In this document: one piece after another, positions 2,576 through 22,242 of the stretch
Position numbering within the stretch: the stretch's first letter is position 1
Layout: each line of letters begins with the position of its first letter
DNA from: a virus
Reading direction: 5' to 3' (one strand)
Virus record (IMG/VR): IMGVR_UViG_3300047551_001661
Coordinates: 1 to 22,705 of that record
DNA length: 22,705 nt
Program-made: the position numbers and the translations under genes
The notes under the pieces: model-generated
The model's input: the letters and a program-made list of their open reading frames with translations, nothing else
The model's database searches: none
What the model was told of the DNA's origin: nothing

Positions 2576-2603
2576 AAAAGGAGGGGTTAACCCCTCCTTT
2601 TTT
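2576..2603. terminator. Bidirectional palindromic terminator between gp32 and gp53
   Basis: AAAAGGAGGGG-TTAA-CCCCTCCTTTT is a perfect palindrome with an 11-base stem and a six-T run on the plus strand (four T on the minus strand). It lies 6 bases after the gp32 stop and directly against the gp53 stop at 2602-2604, so it should end both converging transcripts. Confidence 0.92.
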
Positions 2604-4950
2604 ATACTCCAGAAAGTTTTGGATTATAACTATTTTTTAAAGTGTCTGATATGTAATCAGTAGATTCTCTATTATATTTCATAGAATTCTTCAAATCAGT
2701 GATTATAACAGATAAGTATTCTGGTCTTAGAATTAAAATCTGTCTCTTATTCTCATTTAGTTTTAATTCATATTCATAATTTGATACTGGTCTTGAACAA
2801 TTTTTACCATCTATTTTAAGAATAGTATTAATTGTTGGGTCAAAATACTGTAAACCTTCTGTTATTTTTTCTTTCCACTCGGTCCCAGTCCATTTCCAAG
2901 TTTTATTATTTTGTGAATATGTTTCGTCAACGTCTACATTGACTAAATCTGAAGGAGGATCAATGTAGAAAAATGGGAAATTTACATAATTTTGACCACC
3001 ATCAATAATTTGTACAGTGGCTATTCCAGAATTATTATTCATAGAGTATTTGAATATTGCTTGTCTTGAAATAGGTGCAGATTCTATAGTTACTGTAGGT
3101 GCTTGAGTATATCCAAATCCAGAATTAGTAATATAAAGAGCAGTTACTATTCCTGAAGTAATACTTGCAATACCTGTTGCAGTTACCTGTGGATAAGGTG
3201 CAGATATTGTAATTGTTGGCGCTTGCGTATATCCGAATCCAGGATTTGTTATTAAAATATTAGATACAGAACTATTCGATATTGTAGATATTCCTGTTGC
3301 AACTGCCGTCATTTCATACTGATGAATTCTATTGGGATTTGTTGGACTATTTCCTGCAACAAAAACTTTTTGTCTATTTGAATCTACATAAACATCACAT
3401 GGTTGGGAGATCTTATCACCAACATAATAAGATAGTTTGTAGGTTCCTGTAGATACCTCCCAAGGAGTTGATAAATCAAATTCAAAAATAGCTTGAACAT
3501 CGGATCCAATAGCAAATAGTTTTGTTCCATTTTCAAAGAAACTAAATCCTAATAAATTATTATCTCCCGTAATAGTGTTAACATCTAATTGTCCTGTTAT
3601 AGATCCAGATCTTGTAGAAAGGTCCCAAGGAGTTGATAAATCATATTGTTTGATAATATCTGGAGTTGTCAAATCTAAAATATAAATTTTAGTTCCATCG
3701 GATTTTAATCTAACTCCACCTGGAGAATTTGTTCCCAGTTCGTGTATTTTTGATGCACTTAATAAGTTCCATGGTGTAGACAAATAATAAGTTACAATTT
3801 TATATGAACCTGACTGGCCGCCAGAAACAAACATGTAAATTCCGTCTGGACTTAACTCAACTCCGGTGGTATAAGTAAAATCAGCACTAACGTCCAATCC
3901 ATTTACTTGTGTTAGAGTGGAAACATTCCAAGGTGTAGATAAATTAAATTCTCTAATTCTATCTCCACTGAAAAGACTCGCTGTATAAACTTTTGCTCCA
4001 TCAGAACGAACATACATTCCTTCCAATCCATCTCCTGTTAGAATGGAAGAGTTTGACAAATAATAACCTTCCGAAAACACATCGGGCGGAAATTGAAATT
4101 GAACTGTTGGGGCAGTTAGACCATATCCTATTCCACCACTAAAAGATGTTATTCCAGATACTCTATTAAAAAATGAACCACTTCCCAATTCACATGTCGC
4201 TGAAGCTTGAACTGAAGTTGGAGGATCACTGAAAGTAACGATTGGATTATTATTATAGCCCTGACCACTAACTAATCCGACAAAAGAAGTTACTCTAAAG
4301 TCGGATGTTACACAACTTACGGAAGCATTGGAAGTTACTGGAGGAGAACTTAAAAAGACATCTGGTTTATTGTAATATCCTAAACCAGGTTCTGCAATAA
4401 AAACTGAAGCTATACTAAATCCAGCTCCAACCACAGGGAGTAAAACTGCCTGAGTTCCCGGAACTGTTATGGGTGGAAATGTTATTCCTGGGGGAGGACT
4501 CTCCAAACTTTGATATTCTGGAGCGTCATAAAATGCTTGATCGACTAATAATCCACCGGGTAAAACTTCTCTATTATAACTATCGTAAATCGCTATAGTT
4601 TCATAATGATGAACGTCATTAAATGCTTCTTCAGATCCATACTTATCAATCATGTATCTATAAAAAGAATCTAAATTTAAAGGCCATTCATCTTGCACAT
4701 TTAAAATATTATTTGTTAATAAAACTACCCAATCAAGTTCTGGATCTCCATAAACTTTTTCTGCAATTTGATCGGGTCTTTCATCTTCAGTTATCGAGTA
4801 GTATTGAAATGCAGTTGCAACTTGAGCAAAATCTTCTCTAATTTTTGCACGTTTGAATAAGTTTTTTACAATGACTACTTCATCGTTAGAAACTTCATTC
4901 TTCGTTCTATTATTAAATTGTATATTGGGTAGTTCTCTAAAGTATGACAT
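2602..4950 (-). CDS. gp53: gp53-like baseplate wedge protein with large nested insertions
   Basis: This 782-residue protein is about four times the length of T4 gp53 (196), the wedge subunit that helps join wedges around the hub. The N-terminal 130 residues carry the gp53 pattern: a helical lead, YYSITEDERPDQIAEKVYGD (LysM-like), then ELDWVVLLTNNI. The last 100 residues (LKIDGKNCSRPVSNYEYELK..., ILRPEYL) resemble a gp53 C-terminus. Between them are three G-x-G-Y units (about 189-276), five roughly 50-residue units with LSTPW at 337, 390, 438 and 493 (a probable beta-propeller, about 306-548), then three more G-x-G-Y-like units (571-655). The assembled wedge thus probably displays an extra domain. 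It follows gp48 after one base and is last in the minus-strand operon. Confidence 0.85.
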   Translation of the reverse strand: MSYFRELPNIQFNNRTKNEVSNDEVVIVKNLFKRAKIREDFAQVATAFQYYSITEDERPDQIAEKVYGDPELDWVVLLTNNILNVQDEWPLNLDSFYRYMIDKYGSEEAFNDVHHYETIAIYDSYNREVLPGGLLVDQAFYDAPEYQSLESPPPGITFPPITVPGTQAVLLPVVGAGFSIASVFIAEPGLGYYNKPDVFLSSPPVTSNASVSCVTSDFRVTSFVGLVSGQGYNNNPIVTFSDPPTSVQASATCELGSGSFFNRVSGITSFSGGIGYGLTAPTVQFQFPPDVFSEGYYLSNSSILTGDGLEGMYVRSDGAKVYTASLFSGDRIREFNLSTPWNVSTLTQVNGLDVSADFTYTTGVELSPDGIYMFVSGGQSGSYKIVTYYLSTPWNLLSASKIHELGTNSPGGVRLKSDGTKIYILDLTTPDIIKQYDLSTPWDLSTRSGSITGQLDVNTITGDNNLLGFSFFENGTKLFAIGSDVQAIFEFDLSTPWEVSTGTYKLSYYVGDKISQPCDVYVDSNRQKVFVAGNSPTNPNRIHQYEMTAVATGISTISNSSVSNILITNPGFGYTQAPTITISAPYPQVTATGIASITSGIVTALYITNSGFGYTQAPTVTIESAPISRQAIFKYSMNNNSGIATVQIIDGGQNYVNFPFFYIDPPSDLVNVDVDETYSQNNKTWKWTGTEWKEKITEGLQYFDPTINTILKIDGKNCSRPVSNYEYELKLNENKRQILILRPEYLSVIITDLKNSMKYNRESTDYISDTLKNSYNPKLSGV
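2956..3300 (-). repeat. Second G-x-G-Y repeat block in gp53
   Basis: Residues about 551-665 continue the same unit on the other side of the propeller: GFGYTQAPTITISAP, GFGYTQAPTVTIESAP and a degenerate GGQNYVNFPFFYIDPP. The first two are nearly identical, indicating recent duplication or strong constraint. Confidence 0.75.
3307..4035 (-). repeat. Five-unit beta-propeller-like repeat inside gp53
   Basis: Residues about 306-548 of gp53 repeat a pattern of the type G(V/M)xxxxDGxKxYxxxxxxxxIxxYxLSTPWxxST at 48-55 residue spacing. The LSTPW motif appears four times; the fifth unit ends at IHQYEM without it. Alternating beta pattern and D-G turns suggest propeller blades. Function unknown; surface binding is possible. 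Confidence 0.75.
4081..4413 (-). repeat. First G-x-G-Y repeat block in gp53
   Basis: Residues about 180-290 hold three units of roughly 40 residues, each with G-x-G-Y, a Pro a few residues on and a beta strand ending in PP (GLGYYNKPDVFLSSPP, GQGYNNNPIVTFSDPP, GIGYGLTAPTVQFQFPP). The same unit recurs after the propeller and in the gp5-like protein. Confidence 0.75.
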
Positions 4951-7465: not shown

Positions 7466-8425
7466 ATGCCTGAGAGATTTAGGCCGGATTATCCTTCAAA
7501 CAGATTTAGAGTAGACCCAATCTACACTAGAATGACTCTTCCAAGAGGAACCAATGATGGAAGAGGATCATTACCTAGTGTTCAAGATTTATTTGGTGAA
7601 TTATCAGTAACCAGTCAATTTAAAATAACTCTTTTTTTAGGAGACACGGTATCTTCAGCAAACTCTGATACTAATATCAATTCATGGTTGGTTAGTTGTG
7701 GTGTCTTAGGATCAAATCTCTTCAATGGAAATAATGCAAACTTAAATTCATTACGTTATGAGTTCATGTGTAATGAAACTTCTTTGCCAGGAACGACTTT
7801 AGGAGTAACAGAAGAGTTTGGATCTAAACAAGGTATAACAGAAAAATTTCCAAATAAAAGAGATTTTCCAGATATATCAATGACATTTTATGTTGATGCA
7901 GAATATGGCATCGTTCGTTTATTTGAAGAATGGATAAATTTTATTAATCCTATACACAATAGAACGGGAAGAATACGAAGTGGAAACCCGGCTGGAACTT
8001 TAAGTAGTATTAATGATGCTTGGGAAGTCTTAAGATTTAGATATCCAAACATGTATAAAAAACCCATTGCTATAACAAAATTTGAAAGGGATGTTTATGT
8101 TAATTCTGTGGGGGAAGTAGAAAGAACGCCATCCATGTTAACTTATTATTTTATCAATGCATTTCCAACACAATTAACTGCTCTTCCTGTTACCTATGAA
8201 GGAAGTACCATTACAAAAACAACCGTTAATTTTACATATGAAAGATATGTAATTCTGAATCATCAAGGAACTGGTTCTATCTCGGACGACTCTTTTGCAG
8301 AACAATTCAATAATAATTCTCAAATTCCATTGTTATCCACTCCTAGTATAAGTTTTGGATCTTCAGCACAAACGCAATTCCCACCGTACTTTAACGGAAC
8401 AAATCCATCTCTAAGAATACAATAA
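7466..8425 (+). CDS. gp54: gp54-like baseplate tail-tube initiator
   Basis: This 319-residue protein has the size of T4 gp54 (about 320), which sits on the hub under gp48 and starts tube polymerisation. Tube-fold features are a strand-rich middle with LRYEFMCNETSLPGTT, then FPDISMTFYVDAEYGIVRLFEEWINFI (T4 gp54 has a comparable ISFRMD...MQDWVNSV stretch), and a late LTYYFINAFPTQLTALPVTY ... VNFTYERYVI segment typical of gp19/gp54 proteins. The ATG at 7466 has no Shine-Dalgarno sequence; a Met at codon 23 is an alternative. It opens the long plus-strand operon. The last 50 residues (Ser/Gln/Pro-rich) look disordered. Confidence 0.85.
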   Translation: MPERFRPDYPSNRFRVDPIYTRMTLPRGTNDGRGSLPSVQDLFGELSVTSQFKITLFLGDTVSSANSDTNINSWLVSCGVLGSNLFNGNNANLNSLRYEFMCNETSLPGTTLGVTEEFGSKQGITEKFPNKRDFPDISMTFYVDAEYGIVRLFEEWINFINPIHNRTGRIRSGNPAGTLSSINDAWEVLRFRYPNMYKKPIAITKFERDVYVNSVGEVERTPSMLTYYFINAFPTQLTALPVTYEGSTITKTTVNFTYERYVILNHQGTGSISDDSFAEQFNNNSQIPLLSTPSISFGSSAQTQFPPYFNGTNPSLRIQ

Positions 8426-8453: not shown

Positions 8454-9182
8454 ATGCCATTACCTAAAATTGCTACGCCAACTTACGAACTTGAGTTGCC
8501 ATCTTCAGGAAAGAATATAAAGTACAGACCATTTCTTGTAAAAGAAGAGAAAGTTTTAATTTTAGCACTAGAAAGTCAAGATGTAAAACAAATTACTCTT
8601 GCAATCAAGTCCGTACTTAAAGATTGTATTTTAACCAAAGGAATTAAAGTAGAGGATCTTCCCTCCTTTGACATCGAATACATCTTCTTAAATATCAGAG
8701 CAAAATCAGTATCAGAATCTATTGAACTGATTGTAACTTGTTCTGATGATGGTGAAACTGAAGTTCCTGTAAAAATATTTGTAGATGAAATTCAGGTTCA
8801 AAAAGATCCAGATCATACGTCTGAAATTAAAGTTGATGATGAAATTGTGATTAAGATGAAGTATCCATCTTTAGATCAATTCATTAAAAACAATTTTGAT
8901 TTTTCTTCCAACGAATCTGTTTCTACTATTGATAAATCTTTTGATATTATTTCTTCTTGCATTGAATCTATTTTTACTGCAGAAGACTCTTGGGCTGCTG
9001 CAGATTGTACTAAGAAAGAACTCATTGAGTTTATTGAAAGTATGAATACGGAACAATTCAAGAAAATTGAAAAGTTCTTTGAAACTATGCCTAAACTTTC
9101 ACATACTTTTGAAGTTACAAATCCAAAAACAAAAGTCAAAAATAGCGTAACGCTGGAGGGTCTGACAAGTTTTTTCGGCTAA
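8454..9182 (+). CDS. gp26: gp26-like baseplate hub protein / tail assembly chaperone (G-like)
   Basis: This 242-residue protein matches the T4 baseplate gp26 family in size and pattern: an N-terminal LELPSSGKNIKYRPFLVKEEKVLILALES segment, helices around IKSVLKDCILTKG, and a beta stretch with IRAKSVSESIELIVTC (80s). It is acidic with no membrane segment. By position, before gp51 and the tape-measure genes, it corresponds to the first tail-assembly chaperone of other phages (lambda G, P2 E). Codons 239-241 (AGT TTT TTC) form a T TTT TTC slippery heptamer two codons before the stop, preceded by GGAGGG, so a fraction of ribosomes may shift -1 into gp51. No Shine-Dalgarno precedes its ATG. Confidence 0.88.
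   Translation: MPLPKIATPTYELELPSSGKNIKYRPFLVKEEKVLILALESQDVKQITLAIKSVLKDCILTKGIKVEDLPSFDIEYIFLNIRAKSVSESIELIVTCSDDGETEVPVKIFVDEIQVQKDPDHTSEIKVDDEIVIKMKYPSLDQFIKNNFDFSSNESVSTIDKSFDIISSCIESIFTAEDSWAAADCTKKELIEFIESMNTEQFKKIEKFFETMPKLSHTFEVTNPKTKVKNSVTLEGLTSFFG
9155..9176 (+). promoter_or_regulatory. Putative -1 programmed frameshift signal joining gp26 to gp51
   Basis: GGAGGG (9155-9160) lies nine bases before T TTT TTC (9170-9176), which is in the right phase (X XXY YYZ) with the gp26 codons. The -1 frame then reads CGG CTA AGT straight into the gp51 ATG with no stop, giving a 304-residue fusion. An upstream Shine-Dalgarno-like stimulator is the arrangement known from dnaX; no clear downstream hairpin is seen. 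Confidence 0.75.
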
Positions 9183-9184
9183 GT

Positions 9185-9367
9185 ATGGCTCACATGGAGT
9201 TGGAGTCATATTATCGAATTAACTTTGCTCTCATGCAGTTCCATAAATACTCTTTGACTGAGATTGAAAACATGATTCCCTGGGAGAGAGATATTTATCT
9301 TGCCCTATTGAAACAACATATTGAAGAAGAAAACGAAAAAGCTAGGGCAGCAAATCGTGGCAATTAA
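9185..9367 (+). CDS. gp51: gp51-like tail/baseplate hub assembly protein (T-like extension)
   Basis: This 60-residue protein starts three bases after the gp26 stop. Its YYRINFALMQFHKYSLTEIENMIPWERDIYLALL core resembles the short P2 gpE-type tail chaperone extension (pattern FHW...L..M...E...W...A) and the small protein annotated as gp51 in cyanophages. From memory T4 gp51 is much larger, so the symbol is positional. The last third is a charged helix (HIEEENEKARAA). The nearest GGAGGG is 24 bases upstream, too far for normal initiation, which favours coupling or the -1 frameshift from gp26. The end overlaps the likely GTG start of the tape-measure gene by 11 bases. Confidence 0.75.
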   Translation: MAHMELESYYRINFALMQFHKYSLTEIENMIPWERDIYLALLKQHIEEENEKARAANRGN

Positions 9368-11123
9368 ACCAGCAATCAATCCAGGAGTAGCAGTTGCCGA
9401 GAGACCGGCAACACTCTCTGGTGCGATGAATTTTATTTCTGGTGGCCAAACACTAGGTACATCTATTGTTGCGTCTGCTGCAAATAAAATTGTAGGATTT
9501 CAAAGAGGAGCTGCAGCTGTTGCTCCTAAAGCACCAGATCTTGGATCAATTATCAATACTTTGTCTACTAATATCTTATCAAATGTAGAAAATAAACTGC
9601 AAAGTGTAAATCAAAATATACAACAAGTAATCCAAAATAAATTCATATCTCAACTGGGAGAATATAGAAATAAAATTCAAGAGTTATCTTCAAATCCTCC
9701 AAATAAAATTCTCCAAAATTTCTTCTCTTTATACAAAGAAGCGATAGGATATATTCAATTTTTAGGTAATCGAAAAAATATTAAACGTCTTGGGGATAAT
9801 TTACAAGCTTTACAAAACGTTTTTTCGGAAACTTTTAAAATTGCTGCATTAGTCAGAACAACTATTATAAAAATAGTAAATCAATTATCTAATTTACCTA
9901 CTGCCTCTAGTGGTCCTGGTGGACTTAATATGGATATTAATGTTCCAGGAGGCCCATTGAGAAGAGGTTTGCCTGGAGGTAAGGTTGGAAATATGTTAAA
10001 AATGGCAGGTATGGGAGCTGCTGTTGCTGGCGCTGGTGCTTTAGGTAGTAAAGTAGTAAGTGGAATGATGGATGTTGGGGGAGATGTTCAACCAGATACC
10101 ACGGGAGTTTCTTCCTCCATACCTACTCCACTTTTGGATAGATTTATGGAGGTTTTGAATCGTTTTGATAATGCATTGAAAAACTTCCAAGCACCACAAA
10201 AAGCCCCATCTGCACCATCTGCTCCTACTGGTGGTGCAAAGCAACCAGAAGACAAAAAAAATCCTGGTGGCCCTGGTGGTGGAGTTAATGCTGGTGATAT
10301 AAAAGCAGACACTGCAGAAGAAAAGGCATTTATAGCCACAGTAAGAGAAGCTGAAGGTACTGCAGGCCCTCAGGGATATAATACCTTTTTTGGTGGTTCT
10401 CAGTATGGTGGAGATTTATCTGGAAAAACGGTAACCGAAGTAAAACAACTACAAGAAAAATTTAAGGCAGAAGGAAAAGGTAGATTCTATGATAGAGGCG
10501 CGGGGAAATGGAGAGACTCTGCAGCAGTTGGTGCTGGTCAATTCTTATATCCTGAACAAATAGTTCGTGAAATGGGAATGGACCCCGATAAAGTTAAATT
10601 TACTCCAGAATTACAAAATCAAATGATTTTGTATCTTGCCAAGAAAAAGAGAGGTGTTGATGTAAGTAAAGAATTAACTGCTACTGATTTCAAAATACTG
10701 CAGAAAGAATGGTCAGGTTTGGGATCATACTATGGACAAGGTGGAGATTTGGGTAGAACAGGAAAAATTTACGCAGAAAATCTTAAAGAAGCTAGAAGTC
10801 AAGTAAAAGCAACTGGTGGTCCTGGAGAAGACGCTGCAAAAATAGAAGCACAAATAAGAGCCTCAACAGATAAATCACAAACAATGAAAGGTATTGCAGG
10901 AGAAGTTGCTCAACCAGCAATACCTTCAGACCAACAATCAAATGTAAGTATTGTTCCACTAGTGATGGGAAGTCCACAAACAAATTCAACTCGATCGGGA
11001 ACTCAAATGGCTGCATCTGCTATGATGAGTGGTGGAGTCACGGCTCCATTTTTAAGTTCTTCTAATGAAGATAACTTCTTTACGATATTATCTAAAGTTG
11101 TGTATAACATTGTAGACGGATAA
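9357..11123 (+). CDS. Tape-measure-like tail protein with lambda-endolysin-type lytic domain
   Basis: This protein is about 588 residues from GTG 9357 (AGGG nine bases upstream); an in-frame TTG at 9321 would overlap gp51 more deeply. Its place right after the tail chaperones, its helical Gln/Asn-rich first 180 residues, and a Gly/Ala hydrophobic segment (MLKMAGMGAAVAGAGALG, about 213-230) fit a tape measure; T4 gp29 is 590. After a Pro-rich linker, residues 318-483 resemble lambda R lytic transglycosylase (GH104-like): AFIATVREAEGT with the candidate catalytic Glu at 333, GYNTFFGG, a VGAGQF segment, FTPELQNQMIL and W-SGLGSYYGQ. It probably opens peptidoglycan during infection. The stop overlaps the next ATG (TAATG). 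Structural role inferred; lytic domain fairly clear. Confidence 0.8.
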   Translation: MAIKPAINPGVAVAERPATLSGAMNFISGGQTLGTSIVASAANKIVGFQRGAAAVAPKAPDLGSIINTLSTNILSNVENKLQSVNQNIQQVIQNKFISQLGEYRNKIQELSSNPPNKILQNFFSLYKEAIGYIQFLGNRKNIKRLGDNLQALQNVFSETFKIAALVRTTIIKIVNQLSNLPTASSGPGGLNMDINVPGGPLRRGLPGGKVGNMLKMAGMGAAVAGAGALGSKVVSGMMDVGGDVQPDTTGVSSSIPTPLLDRFMEVLNRFDNALKNFQAPQKAPSAPSAPTGGAKQPEDKKNPGGPGGGVNAGDIKADTAEEKAFIATVREAEGTAGPQGYNTFFGGSQYGGDLSGKTVTEVKQLQEKFKAEGKGRFYDRGAGKWRDSAAVGAGQFLYPEQIVREMGMDPDKVKFTPELQNQMILYLAKKKRGVDVSKELTATDFKILQKEWSGLGSYYGQGGDLGRTGKIYAENLKEARSQVKATGGPGEDAAKIEAQIRASTDKSQTMKGIAGEVAQPAIPSDQQSNVSIVPLVMGSPQTNSTRSGTQMAASAMMSGGVTAPFLSSSNEDNFFTILSKVVYNIVDG

Positions 11124-13138
11124 TGGCTATTAGTTCTCCTCTTCTTGGCGCATTTAACAACATAGTAAACATAAACAGATCTAAGTCGGCTATGAATTCG
11201 ACTAGATCATCGTTTAATAATTTCCTTAATTTTATGGAAATTGAAACGAAAAGATTAGAGGCTATAAAGTTACCAGAAGAAAGAAAGATAAAAAATCTTC
11301 AAACTTTAAACATTGCTTCTACATTTGGAAGACCTGGAAGTTTATTGAGTTCTTTGTTTAGTGGTGCTCTAGATGTTGGTGGATTCCTTGGAAGTATGTT
11401 TGGTGGTGGAAAAGGAAAATCACCGAAGGCAGGAAAACCTATACCAAAAGCTAAGGGTATTAGATTGGGTGGATTTAAAGCAATAGGTATTGCAAACGCT
11501 GTCTTTGCTGGATTGGACTTTGCAACAGGACTCGCTGAAGGAGAGTCTGTAGGTAAAGCTGCTTCTGGTGCTGGTGGTGCTCTTGCTGGATCTCTGTTAG
11601 GTGGTGCAATAGGTCAAGCATTAATTCCTGTTCCTGGATTAGGATTTGTCATTGGAAGTATGGCCGGTAACTTTTTAGGAGGTTATTTAGCCGATAGAGG
11701 ATATGAAGCTGCAACTGGGGAAGGTCAGTCGGTTAAAGAAAAAACTAGAGAACGATTAAGAGCTCAAGAGAAAAAACAAAGAGAAGAAGCTGCCGCTGGC
11801 GGGGTTACATTTGCAGATGTTACAAGTAGATTTGATCAAGTTGTAAGTAACTTTGAAAAATTTGCTTACTCTGGATTTGCGAACATAATGAATGCCGCGG
11901 CCGCTGCTACAGGTCAGGAAGAAAATCTTGAATGGGGTGCAGAATATCCTGATGATCAACAAGGAACTGGAGATGTAACTGGACAATATGAAGATGTAAT
12001 GGCGGAGGGAGGAAAACTTCCAAGTTCTGCAATTAAAACCAGTGGATTTGGAAAGCGTTGGGGTAGAGACCATAATGGAAATGATTATGCTGGTCCGGGA
12101 GTAGATTATCAACCAGTAAGTATAATTCAGCCAGGAAAAGTTGCGGTTGCTGGACCATTAGGAAGTGCAGGAAATGCGGTAGTAATTGATCACCCTGATG
12201 GTACAACTACAAAATATTTCCACTTAATGGATAATTCAATTAGAGTTAAAGTGGGTCAACAAATAAAACCAGGGCAAGTTATCGGTAATGTTGGAAGTAC
12301 GGGAAGATCTACAGGACCACATCTACACTTTGAAGTTTGGAGAAATGGTAGACCTCAAGATCCAACCGCAGATGCAGATAGATATTTTAGATTTGGTGGT
12401 AATGTAAAGGTTAAACCAAAACAAGGAGGATCTTCAAATGCTCCAACAGCAGTATTGATGGCAGGAACCAATGATGCAGATGCAAATACTGCGGCCGCGA
12501 ATGTTAAAAAATCAATCGAAGAACTTAAGGCAAAAGGATACCGAGTAGTTGTAGTCCCACCTTCTCAACAATCTGGAAGTAAGTACAAAGGAATCGGAGA
12601 GGCTATAGAAAAAGCTGCAGTATCTTCTGGTGCTGAGGTAAGAAATAAAACATATAAAGGTGCTGGAGATGCTTATCCATTTGCTCATTTAGATTCAAAA
12701 TCAGTTAAAGATTTAAAAACTGAATTCCCAAATGCAAAATTTATCGGTGATAGTAACGCAGAACCCTTTGCGGGTTCTATGAATTATAGAGGGAAACCTT
12801 CTGCAACAATTCTTGATGCAGTGAGAACTCTTCCTAGTGTTAAAGGACAAGGTGGTCCAGAAGAAGATGCATCAATTCTAGAAGCTATAGTTCGTTCTGG
12901 TACAACAATTCCTATCATTCCACAACAAGTTTCACAATATCCTTCATATGATATGGGAACAAACAAGATGGTTCTAATTCCCATAATTCAGGGTCAAGGA
13001 ACTCAGCAAAGACCTATGATGATTTCTGGGGGTGGAGGTGGTGGCCAACAAATGATGATTCCTGCAGGACCCTCTAAAGGTGCAATGTTAAATAATGTAG
13101 TTAAAACTCTTTTACTAACTAATTTATCCGGTAGTTAA
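11123..13138 (+). CDS. Second tape-measure-like structural protein with M23 peptidase and SGNH-like regions
   Basis: This 671-residue protein is translationally coupled to the previous gene. Residues 70-190 are Gly/Ala-rich and hydrophobic (GGALAGSLLGGAIGQALIP, GFVIGSMAGNFLGGYLA), as in tape-measure membrane segments. Residues 300-415 form an M23 (lysostaphin/LytM-type) metalloendopeptidase: His317-xxx-Asp321, His367 in KYFHLMD and HLHFE with His400/His402, so all zinc and catalytic residues are present. Residues 441-570 contain GTND (448-451), AHLD (521-524) and GDS (542-544), the three SGNH-hydrolase blocks in a rotated order. A Gly-rich tail follows; the final stretch resembles the end of the upstream protein. 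With its neighbour it likely spans the tail lumen and cuts cell-wall peptides. Confidence 0.82.
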   Translation: MAISSPLLGAFNNIVNINRSKSAMNSTRSSFNNFLNFMEIETKRLEAIKLPEERKIKNLQTLNIASTFGRPGSLLSSLFSGALDVGGFLGSMFGGGKGKSPKAGKPIPKAKGIRLGGFKAIGIANAVFAGLDFATGLAEGESVGKAASGAGGALAGSLLGGAIGQALIPVPGLGFVIGSMAGNFLGGYLADRGYEAATGEGQSVKEKTRERLRAQEKKQREEAAAGGVTFADVTSRFDQVVSNFEKFAYSGFANIMNAAAAATGQEENLEWGAEYPDDQQGTGDVTGQYEDVMAEGGKLPSSAIKTSGFGKRWGRDHNGNDYAGPGVDYQPVSIIQPGKVAVAGPLGSAGNAVVIDHPDGTTTKYFHLMDNSIRVKVGQQIKPGQVIGNVGSTGRSTGPHLHFEVWRNGRPQDPTADADRYFRFGGNVKVKPKQGGSSNAPTAVLMAGTNDADANTAAANVKKSIEELKAKGYRVVVVPPSQQSGSKYKGIGEAIEKAAVSSGAEVRNKTYKGAGDAYPFAHLDSKSVKDLKTEFPNAKFIGDSNAEPFAGSMNYRGKPSATILDAVRTLPSVKGQGGPEEDASILEAIVRSGTTIPIIPQQVSQYPSYDMGTNKMVLIPIIQGQGTQQRPMMISGGGGGGQQMMIPAGPSKGAMLNNVVKTLLLTNLSGS

Positions 13139-17468: not shown

Positions 17469-18338
17469 ATGCCACAGGAACCAGTAAAATATATTGGTGA
17501 CAAACTTGTTGTTGGACCAGTAGATTTTTCATTTGTACCCGCACTTCCTGCGGTTCCTGGAACTACCGTATTAAACGGACCTGTTTGGATAGGATCGGGA
17601 CTGCCTGCTATTCCAACTGCCAATTGTATGATAGGCCCTGGATTAAATCCAGTGACTTTACAAGTTACTGGAATAGCAAATTTTTTAGCAGTTACAAACC
17701 AAATTGGAGTTAACAACAGAAGTGGACTCGCTAATATTTTTGGATCTACTTCTAAATTTGGAACAAGTTTAAAAGCAGCATTTTCTGCAACAACTGGATT
17801 TAGTGCAAAAGCTGCTGCACAGACTACCGCAGGTCCAAATTATGCCAATGCATTTGCACAAACTCCTTTAGCTAAAGCTGCAATTATTGAAGGATTTGCA
17901 GGAACTACCACTGGAATTAATCCCACTCAACAAACAGCATTAAATACAAAAAAACCATTTGATATTAAACATCCAACAAAAGAAGGTTGGAGACTCAGAC
18001 ATGTTTGCGTTGAGGGTCCAACCGCTGATGTTTATGTTAGAGGTATAATAGAAGGTTCTGATGTTATTGAACTACCTGATTATTGGATTGGTTTAGTTGA
18101 CTCGGATACAATTACTATAAGTTTGACTCCTATCGGAGAATATCAAGAACTTTCTGCAGAATTGTTGGACTGCAATACAAAGATACAAGTTTATAATAAT
18201 TTAGGAAAACTGGGAAAGTATAGTTATCTTGTCTTTGGAGAAAGAAAAGACGTTGATAAAAACATTGCGGAATATGAAGGATCATCCGTTGATGACTATC
18301 CTGGAGATAATGCTCAATATGGATTGTTTACTTTATAA
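17469..18338 (+). CDS. Tail/virion structural protein, tandem copy 1
   Basis: This 289-residue protein has an N-terminal part (1-150) of Gly/Ala/Thr-rich strands with MPQEPVKYIGDKLVVG at the start and FSATTGFSAKAA in the middle, and a distinct C-terminal domain (about 165-275): FDIKHPTKEGWRLRHVCVEGP, ADVYVRGII, VIELPDYWIGLVD, ITISLTPIGEYQEL and a closing FGERKDVDKNIAEYEG. This C-terminal domain recurs in cyanophage and other marine phage structural and fibre proteins; its exact role is unknown to me. Codon use is AT-rich like its neighbours. Its position after the spike suggests a baseplate or fibre component. It is followed after five bases by a close paralogue. Confidence 0.8.
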   Translation: MPQEPVKYIGDKLVVGPVDFSFVPALPAVPGTTVLNGPVWIGSGLPAIPTANCMIGPGLNPVTLQVTGIANFLAVTNQIGVNNRSGLANIFGSTSKFGTSLKAAFSATTGFSAKAAAQTTAGPNYANAFAQTPLAKAAIIEGFAGTTTGINPTQQTALNTKKPFDIKHPTKEGWRLRHVCVEGPTADVYVRGIIEGSDVIELPDYWIGLVDSDTITISLTPIGEYQELSAELLDCNTKIQVYNNLGKLGKYSYLVFGERKDVDKNIAEYEGSSVDDYPGDNAQYGLFTL

Positions 18339-18343
18339 TTGTT

Positions 18344-19246
18344 ATGCCACAGGAACCAGTAAAATACATCGGAGATAAACTTGTTGTTGGACAAGTAGAT
18401 TTTTCGTTTATCCCTGGATGTGTTCCACCAATACCAGGAACTTCCGTTTTAAATGGCCCTGTTTGGATCGGCGCAGGGTTGCCTGCTATCCCTACTGCAA
18501 ATTGTATGATAGGGCCAGGTTTACTACCAATTGCATTGCAAGTTACTGGAGTAACTAATTTTTTATCAGTTAATAATCAGGTTGGAAATTATAACAGATA
18601 CGGACTTGCTAATGTTTTTGGAGCTACATCCAAATTTGGTGTTGATACTAAATTGGCTTTTTCAGCAACAACAGGATTTAGTGCAAAAGCTGCGGTTCAA
18701 AAAACAGATGGACCCTACTATGCTCAAGCATTCAAACAAACTCCACTGTTCAAAGCTTCAGTGTGGACAGGAAATATGGCAACAACAACTGGAATGAATC
18801 CGACTTTCATCTCTGCCCTTGCTCCACTAAAACCAGTTGGACATCCAAACTTTGATATTGAACATCCGATAAAAAAAGGATGGAGACTTCGTTATGTTTG
18901 TACAGAAGGGCCTGCTGCAGATGTTTACATCAAAGGTACTCTAAAAAAACATAACATTATAGAATTACCAGATTATTGGCAAGGTTTAGTTCATGCCGAA
19001 ACAATACATGCAATACTAACTCCTATTGGTAAACATCAAAAACTTTTTTATAATGTTTCCGAATGTGGTACAAAGATCATTGTTTCAAGTAATTCTGACG
19101 AGGATATTCATTGTTACTATAAAGTGTTTGCAGAAAGAAAGGACACGCCAAAGAATATTGTAGAATATGAAGGCTTGACATATAAAGATTATCCAGGTGA
19201 TAATAATGAATATAGATTCTGGTTTAGCCCAAGAGTTTTCCCATAA
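18344..19246 (+). CDS. Tail/virion structural protein, tandem copy 2
   Basis: This 300-residue paralogue shares the first 16 residues exactly with copy 1 (MPQEPVKYIGDKLVVG), with nearly identical DNA there, and keeps the whole domain layout: FSATTGFSAKAA, a FDIEHPIKKGWRLRYVCTEGPAADVYIKG block, IELPDYWQGLVHAE, and FAERKDTPKNIVEYEGLTYKDYPGDN. It differs most in the central linker and in the last 15 residues, which extend to a Phe/Pro-rich end. The two may form a heteromer or serve different symmetry positions. The stop codon lies inside a CATAAATA late-promoter-like box. Confidence 0.8.
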   Translation: MPQEPVKYIGDKLVVGQVDFSFIPGCVPPIPGTSVLNGPVWIGAGLPAIPTANCMIGPGLLPIALQVTGVTNFLSVNNQVGNYNRYGLANVFGATSKFGVDTKLAFSATTGFSAKAAVQKTDGPYYAQAFKQTPLFKASVWTGNMATTTGMNPTFISALAPLKPVGHPNFDIEHPIKKGWRLRYVCTEGPAADVYIKGTLKKHNIIELPDYWQGLVHAETIHAILTPIGKHQKLFYNVSECGTKIIVSSNSDEDIHCYYKVFAERKDTPKNIVEYEGLTYKDYPGDNNEYRFWFSPRVFP

Positions 19247-21762: not shown

Positions 21763-22242
21763 ATGACTATCAAATCAAAATTTATTTCTTATTTTGAAGG
21801 TTACTTTAACAATCAAGCACAGGCATTTCATATGCCAAGAGAATTTGCTTTGATTGAAGTCATTCATACTAAGTTATCTGCGGATACTTTTAAAGTTACT
21901 CAAAAATATATCATTGATCAAGAACCATATAGACAAGCAATTATTGAAGTAACCCAAAAAGATGGAAAAATCATTTTAAAATCATACAAAGATGAAGAAA
22001 AAACCATATACTTAGATGGTTGTGATGTAATCTTTGAATATGATGAAGAAAAAGATCAATTCCATGGAAAAAATTGCTGTGATGAATGCTTTGTAGAAAA
22101 ATTTGGAAAAAATACCTATCTTTCAACTGAAGCCTTTCTCACAGAAGGTTCTTATCATGTAGTAGATAAGGGATTTGATCCAGAAACAGATGAACAAGTT
22201 TGGGGATCATATCACGGCCTATTTCAATTTGATCGGAAATAA
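21763..22242 (+). CDS. cpeT: CpeT-like bilin lyase (phycobiliprotein chromophore attachment)
   Basis: This 159-residue protein belongs to the CpcT/CpeT T-type lyases, which attach a bilin to a cysteine of phycoerythrin or phycocyanin beta subunits. Seen: an N-terminal helix ending FNNQAQAF, EPYRQAIIEV (54-63; the family PYR motif), IYLDGCDVIFEY, a NTYLSTEAFLTEG hairpin and the signature KGFDPETDEQVWGSYHGLFQF at 136-156. At 159 residues it is shorter than the cellular enzymes (about 200), as in other cyanophage copies. Cyanophage CpeT is an established auxiliary gene, with chromophore binding better supported than lyase activity. It has its own late promoter and terminator, so it is a single-gene unit. 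Confidence 0.93.
   Translation: MTIKSKFISYFEGYFNNQAQAFHMPREFALIEVIHTKLSADTFKVTQKYIIDQEPYRQAIIEVTQKDGKIILKSYKDEEKTIYLDGCDVIFEYDEEKDQFHGKNCCDECFVEKFGKNTYLSTEAFLTEGSYHVVDKGFDPETDEQVWGSYHGLFQFDRK

Follow-up and report, generated by a model that had tools for sequence, protein, structure and literature searches.

Sequence signals for a probable −1 frameshift joining gp26 and gp51 in T4-like phages

Phages lambda (G/GT) and P2 (E/E+E′) produce a short tail chaperone and a longer −1 frameshift fusion from genes located upstream of the tape measure region, with a poly-T heptamer serving as the slippery site in P2; these frameshifts were reportedly described by Levin in 1993, Christie in 2002 and Xu in 2004. 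In the Escherichia coli dnaX gene, the slippery heptamer A AAA AAG is preceded by a Shine–Dalgarno (SD)-like sequence approximately 10 nt upstream and followed by a stem–loop a few nucleotides downstream. For T4-like phages, Vladimirov, Gautam and Davidson are said to have found in 2022 that frameshifting is apparently conserved in several groups, with T4 having separate genes 26 and 51. That study identified the tail assembly chaperone (TAC) genes of T4-like phages (Virology, doi 10.1016/j.virol.2021.11.003). Of two other papers that cite it, one does so in connection with poly-T signals for −1 frameshifting in the TAC-N genes of this group (PMC12846349), the other for the separate short and long TAC genes that some of its members have (PMC10885494). 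The idea of a frameshift is therefore already published in kind for T4-like phages, and the original prediction, which knew of no description for the gp26/gp51 pair, has to be corrected on this point. The same paper describes the TAC locus of Pakpunavirus Adele, which, like the locus analysed here, has a conserved poly-T site and a −1 frame open through ‘intergenic’ sequence, but which belongs to another phage family and has a GTTTTT motif (PMC12846349). T4 gp51 is essential yet is not found in the particle (PMC3004832), and a 2010 comparison of T4-like cyanophages noted a short cyanophage gp51 with approximately 200 residues fewer than T4 gp51, with no mention of frameshifting (PMC3037559).

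We analysed an IMG/VR virus record of 22,705 bases (hereafter, the window), which derives from a T4-like phage, probably with a cyanobacterial host. A tail tube homologue (7466–8425) lies upstream of gp26, and the two open reading frames (ORFs) downstream of gp51, one encoding 587 aa and one carrying an M23 peptidase domain, are tape-measure-like by position. The features of the junction are as follows.

8454–9182, plus strand: gp26 ORF, predicted short tail assembly chaperone (TAC-N), 242 aa; PF12322 T4_baseplate 9e-72, phrog_150 1e-78
9155–9160, plus strand: GGAGGG, SD-like putative stimulator, 9 nt before the heptamer
9170–9176, plus strand: candidate slippery heptamer T TTT TTC for a −1 shift, in X XXY YYZ phase
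9176–9367, plus strand: −1 frame continuation (TAC-C), 63 residues after the slip plus stop; phrog_634 1.7e-27, phrog_150 C-terminus
9182–9212, plus strand: stem–loop, arms 9182–9191 with 9203–9212 and inner pairs 9193–9194 with 9201–9202, 10–12 bp
9185–9367, plus strand: gp51 ORF as usually annotated, 60 aa
9360–11123, plus strand: ORF after gp51, 587 aa from GTG 9360, overlapping the end of gp51

The gp26 gene ends in AGT TTT TTC GGC TAA, and after a −1 slip the frame reads CGG CTA AGT ATG and stays open until the stop at 9365–9367. As originally predicted, the heptamer occupies 9170–9176 in the correct phase with GGAGGG nine bases upstream, and translation with the slip yields a 304-residue gp26–gp51 fusion (TAC-NC) with the junction ...LTSFFRLSMAHMEL... 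The layout matches lambda G/GT and P2 E/E+E′ in combining a short form with a −1 fusion; the protein family differs by sequence, and the slip site in the window is flanked by both an SD-like element and a hairpin. It shares the same three parts with E. coli dnaX, although the gene is unrelated, the heptamer there is A AAA AAG and the hairpin of the window's clade has a start codon within it as well.

On the evidence of profile matches, gp26 and gp51 are homologous to T4 gp26 and gp51 (PF12322, phrog_150/634). The window's gp51 belongs to phrog_634 and also matches columns 239–280 of the gp26 profile phrog_150, so some proteins of the family carry both parts in a single chain. Both T4 proteins match PF12322, and T4 gp51 spans positions 13 to 280 of the 282 in phrog_150, together with phrog_634; having both a complete match to the gp26 profile and the gp51 domain, T4 gp51 corresponds to the fused TAC-NC, and T4 gp26 to the short form. 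Rather than a shrunken T4 gp51 (compare PMC3037559), the short cyanophage gp51 is most likely the C-terminal domain of a longer frameshift product, which is the counterpart of the complete T4 gp51. In T4, Aeromonas phage 31, Serratia phage PS2 and Proteus phage PM2, the short and long forms are separate neighbouring genes in opposite orientation and, unlike in the window, gp26 ends without the heptamer; the T4 group would in this respect contrast with most T4-like lineages, in which a frameshift is predicted. An AlphaFold model of gp26 (pLDDT 85.7) matched many viral ‘baseplate hub’ proteins in a structure search, and its only relevant match in the PDB, ranked second, was the HK97 tail assembly chaperone 2ob9, a weak and non-significant one (E = 1.0, probability 0.69) that is only suggestive of a shared TAC fold. 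A sequence search of solved structures found none related to gp26.

The original prediction proposed a comparison across relatives, and this comparison bore out the frameshift reading: the heptamer, the phase of gp51 and, in most relatives, the SD-like element are kept. Among 235 distinct junctions collected from IMG/VR scans and named phages, with gp26 identity down to about 25%, 232 had T TTT TTN in phase with an open −1 frame (228 TTC, 3 TTT and 1 TTA, located 0–6 nt before the stop); these counts do not represent independent events because the sequences are related. In the 80 closest IMG/VR loci the junction was readable in 79, all of which kept the heptamer, and gp26 searches started singly from KVP40 and Cr30 returned two loci each. 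The phages conserving it infect cyanobacteria, Vibrio, Aeromonas, Caulobacter, Agrobacterium and other hosts, and include Kyanoviridae, Methylophilales Melnitz-1, Caulobacter Cr30, Vibrio KVP40 and K571, Aeromonas PX29, Ochrobactrum OC and ORM_20, Stenotrophomonas Moby and Agrobacterium OLIVR5, as well as PhiW-14 and Vibrio Bakedbeans, which were examined after the 235-junction count. Where complete, the −1 extension past the 0-frame stop comprises 55–68 residues, and the junction peptide FFR[LIV] is conserved in the −1 frame. Exceptions are Cygsa01 and the Ackermannviridae-like Vibrio phages D531, 1.244 and K469, which carry CATTTTC, CTTTTC or CTTTTT in place of the heptamer and in which the gp26 stop and the gp51 ATG overlap as TAATG, with gp51 again in the −1 phase; these phages may make the long or split form by a third route, either reinitiation or slippage at a non-canonical site. 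One further candidate counterexample, a locus with no heptamer and a 20-residue extension, was set aside as probably a frame error or truncated gene.

Upstream of the heptamer, GGAGG was present in 101 of 232 relatives against 14.5 expected (maximum 26) from 300 synonymous resamplings, an approximately sevenfold enrichment, and the distance from the end of GAGG to the heptamer was constant at 10 nt in 171 of 176 cases. The enrichment is not universal, and the element is missing in some clades. Consistent with constraint at the nucleotide level, the Glu of the LEG motif, whose codon is part of the SD-like element, is encoded by GAG in 171 of 212 cases, compared with 28% elsewhere.

Downstream of the heptamer, after a 5-nt spacer, we found a hairpin at 9182–9212 that was absent from the original prediction and that contains the gp51 ATG. 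Its predicted stability is −12.9 kcal/mol (z −2.74 against shuffles), the downstream region of the window has a z of −2.84 against synonymous recodings, and the 60 nt past the heptamer are comparatively stable for their surroundings (median 12.8th percentile of local windows). Across 102 diverse sequences, the 45 nt downstream had a mean z of −2.04 against synonymous −1-frame recodings, with 53% of the sequences below −2, compared with mean z values of −0.34 to −0.64 and 6–14% below −2 at four control positions in gp26. In an alignment of 62 rows picked by gp51 peptide, without regard to pairing, the proportion of cells forming the ten-pair stem was 85.8%, and slid versions reached no more than 56%; the stem contained 20 double-change cells against 4.6 in shuffles (reached in 0 of 500) and gave a covariation score of 0.160 against 0.085 shuffled (0 of 500). 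One stem pair occurs as UA, GC or AU (GCT..GAG, GCG..GCG and GCA..GTG), with five changes to the GC state and one to AU on the gp26 tree, although recombination could mimic some such repeated compensatory changes. RNAalifold alone returned no consensus structure for the 62-sequence alignment, probably because of about 7 rows that do not form the stem, so the case for the stem is built on single-sequence folds, synonymous-recoding nulls and counts at named pairs. The shape of the stem also varies between clades, being weak or absent in some; given this and the RNAalifold result, support for the hairpin is strong in the window's clade and moderate across the relatives as a whole. An Rfam search at the junction gave no relevant match. 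In another cyanophage clade (loci L111, L117, L138, L169 and relatives), a different small hairpin, of the GGUCCAUAUGGACC type, occurs downstream of the heptamer at columns 18–31 of alignment A2, where two pairs show exchanges (UA/CG and AU/GC); it overlaps the conserved MVHMDL peptide, and we make no strong claim for it.

The codons at the slip site speak to the simplest alternative, in which TTT TTC is kept only for a Phe-Phe pair at the gp26 C-terminus and its phase is an accident of common descent. The pair is indeed nearly invariant across the family, distant gp26 proteins included, but the codons encoding it are not free: T4 gp26 encodes the same residues as TTC TTT, which gives no heptamer, and the combination TTT TTC is rare at the other Phe-Phe pairs of the genes analysed (11 of 222). 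The A-site codon is TTC at 228 of 232 junctions, compared with 742 of 2,728 Phe codons elsewhere (27%). In the codon directly after the pair, the −1 frame encodes Arg in 198 of 207 relatives, whereas the 0 frame encodes G, A, V, E, S or D, which marks the −1 frame as the constrained one. These sequence statistics indicate that conservation of the heptamer is not due to chance, and they contradict an explanation by Phe-Phe alone, to which we give almost no credence.

In a second alternative, gp51 is a gene in its own right that is translated from the ATG at 9185 through termination–reinitiation after the gp26 stop two bases upstream, and the heptamer is incidental. An ATG does stand at the same place in 127 of 207 relatives, stop and ATG lie within 5 nt of each other, and the TAATG overlaps of Cygsa01 and Vibrio phages D531, K469 and 1.244, which lack the heptamer, would suit such a scheme. 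The initiation signals do not: an SD core in the usual place precedes none of the 127 ATGs, and the ATG lies within a stable hairpin. The 24-nt gap between GGAGGG and the ATG is, as the original prediction had argued, too long for a ribosome-binding site, leaving the gp51 ATG without one. In 40 of 232 relatives, including ACG-2014d and S-CAM8, there is no ATG, GTG or TTG near the junction at all, and gp51 has been left unannotated in several cyanophage records, these two among them. Independent translation would also leave the TTT TTC bias, the GGAGG enrichment and the −1-frame Arg before the ATG unexplained, and we regard it as very improbable. Somewhat less improbable, though still unlikely, is a variant that does not exclude the frameshift, in which the gp51 domain is made mostly by slippage and a little free gp51 (TAC-C) arises by reinitiation in the clades that keep the ATG. 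Retention of the ATG in the window's clade goes beyond the apparent requirements of the fusion (of 207 relatives, 127 have M and 72 have L at codon 6), but this could be owed to the amino acid or to the sequence of the hairpin, and the lack of a ribosome-binding site and the hairpin covering the ATG weigh against this variant as well. Where the original prediction spoke of a gp26/gp51 pair, gp51 is most likely the C-terminal part of the fusion (TAC-C) rather than a free-standing gene. No fusion is annotated in the related phage records that we examined.

Taken with the sequence elements, their conservation, the codon constraint, the RNA pairing and the homology of T4 gp51 to the fused product, all of which are observed, a programmed −1 frameshift at T TTT TTC that yields a gp26–gp51 TAC-NC, with gp51 as its C-terminal domain, is in our judgement very probable. 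Most ribosomes would complete gp26 and release the 242-aa TAC-N. Others would be held up by the pairing of the SD-like GGAGGG behind them and by the 10–12-bp hairpin 5 nt in front, would shift from T TTT TTC to TTT TTT and would read on into gp51, producing the 304-aa TAC-NC. On the model of lambda gpG/gpGT, the two forms together may coat the tape measure protein and let the tail tube assemble. The occurrence and rate of the shift, the contribution of each stimulator and the chaperone function are predictions of this model. For T4-like cyanophages we lean, with less assurance, towards a more specific proposal: the TAC frameshift would be driven by a signal of three parts, as in dnaX (SD-like GGAGGG, T TTT TTC and a hairpin after 5 nt), whose hairpin differs in shape between clades. 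In the window's clade this hairpin would, in addition, close off the gp51 ATG; gp51 would then be made only as the tail of the fusion, and the annotated cyanophage gene 51 would not be a gene of its own. The SD-like element and the hairpin may be unreported so far; together with the missing start codons and the assignment of cyanophage gp51 as the C-terminal domain of the fusion, they are what this analysis adds, and the signal is compact and directly assayable.

Elsewhere in the window, the 587-aa ORF directly after gp51 (9360–11123) had no family match in profile searches, and its position suits a tape measure or ejection protein. The next gene (11123–13138), two genes past the chaperone, encodes a protein of 671 aa that carries an M23 peptidase domain, and it is the only one of the two to match tape measure profiles, in part and through the peptidase domain. 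Tandem paralogues at 17469–18338 and 18344–19246, 63% identical over 293 residues and with no Pfam match, are probably a duplicated virion or tail protein. A CpeT/CpcT-family gene at 21763–22242 (PF06206, 1.4e-25), a phycobilin-related auxiliary gene, is consistent with a cyanobacterial host, and on the minus strand (2602–4950) a homologue of the baseplate wedge protein gp53 is enlarged to 782 aa and is repeat-rich after its N-terminal gp53 domain.
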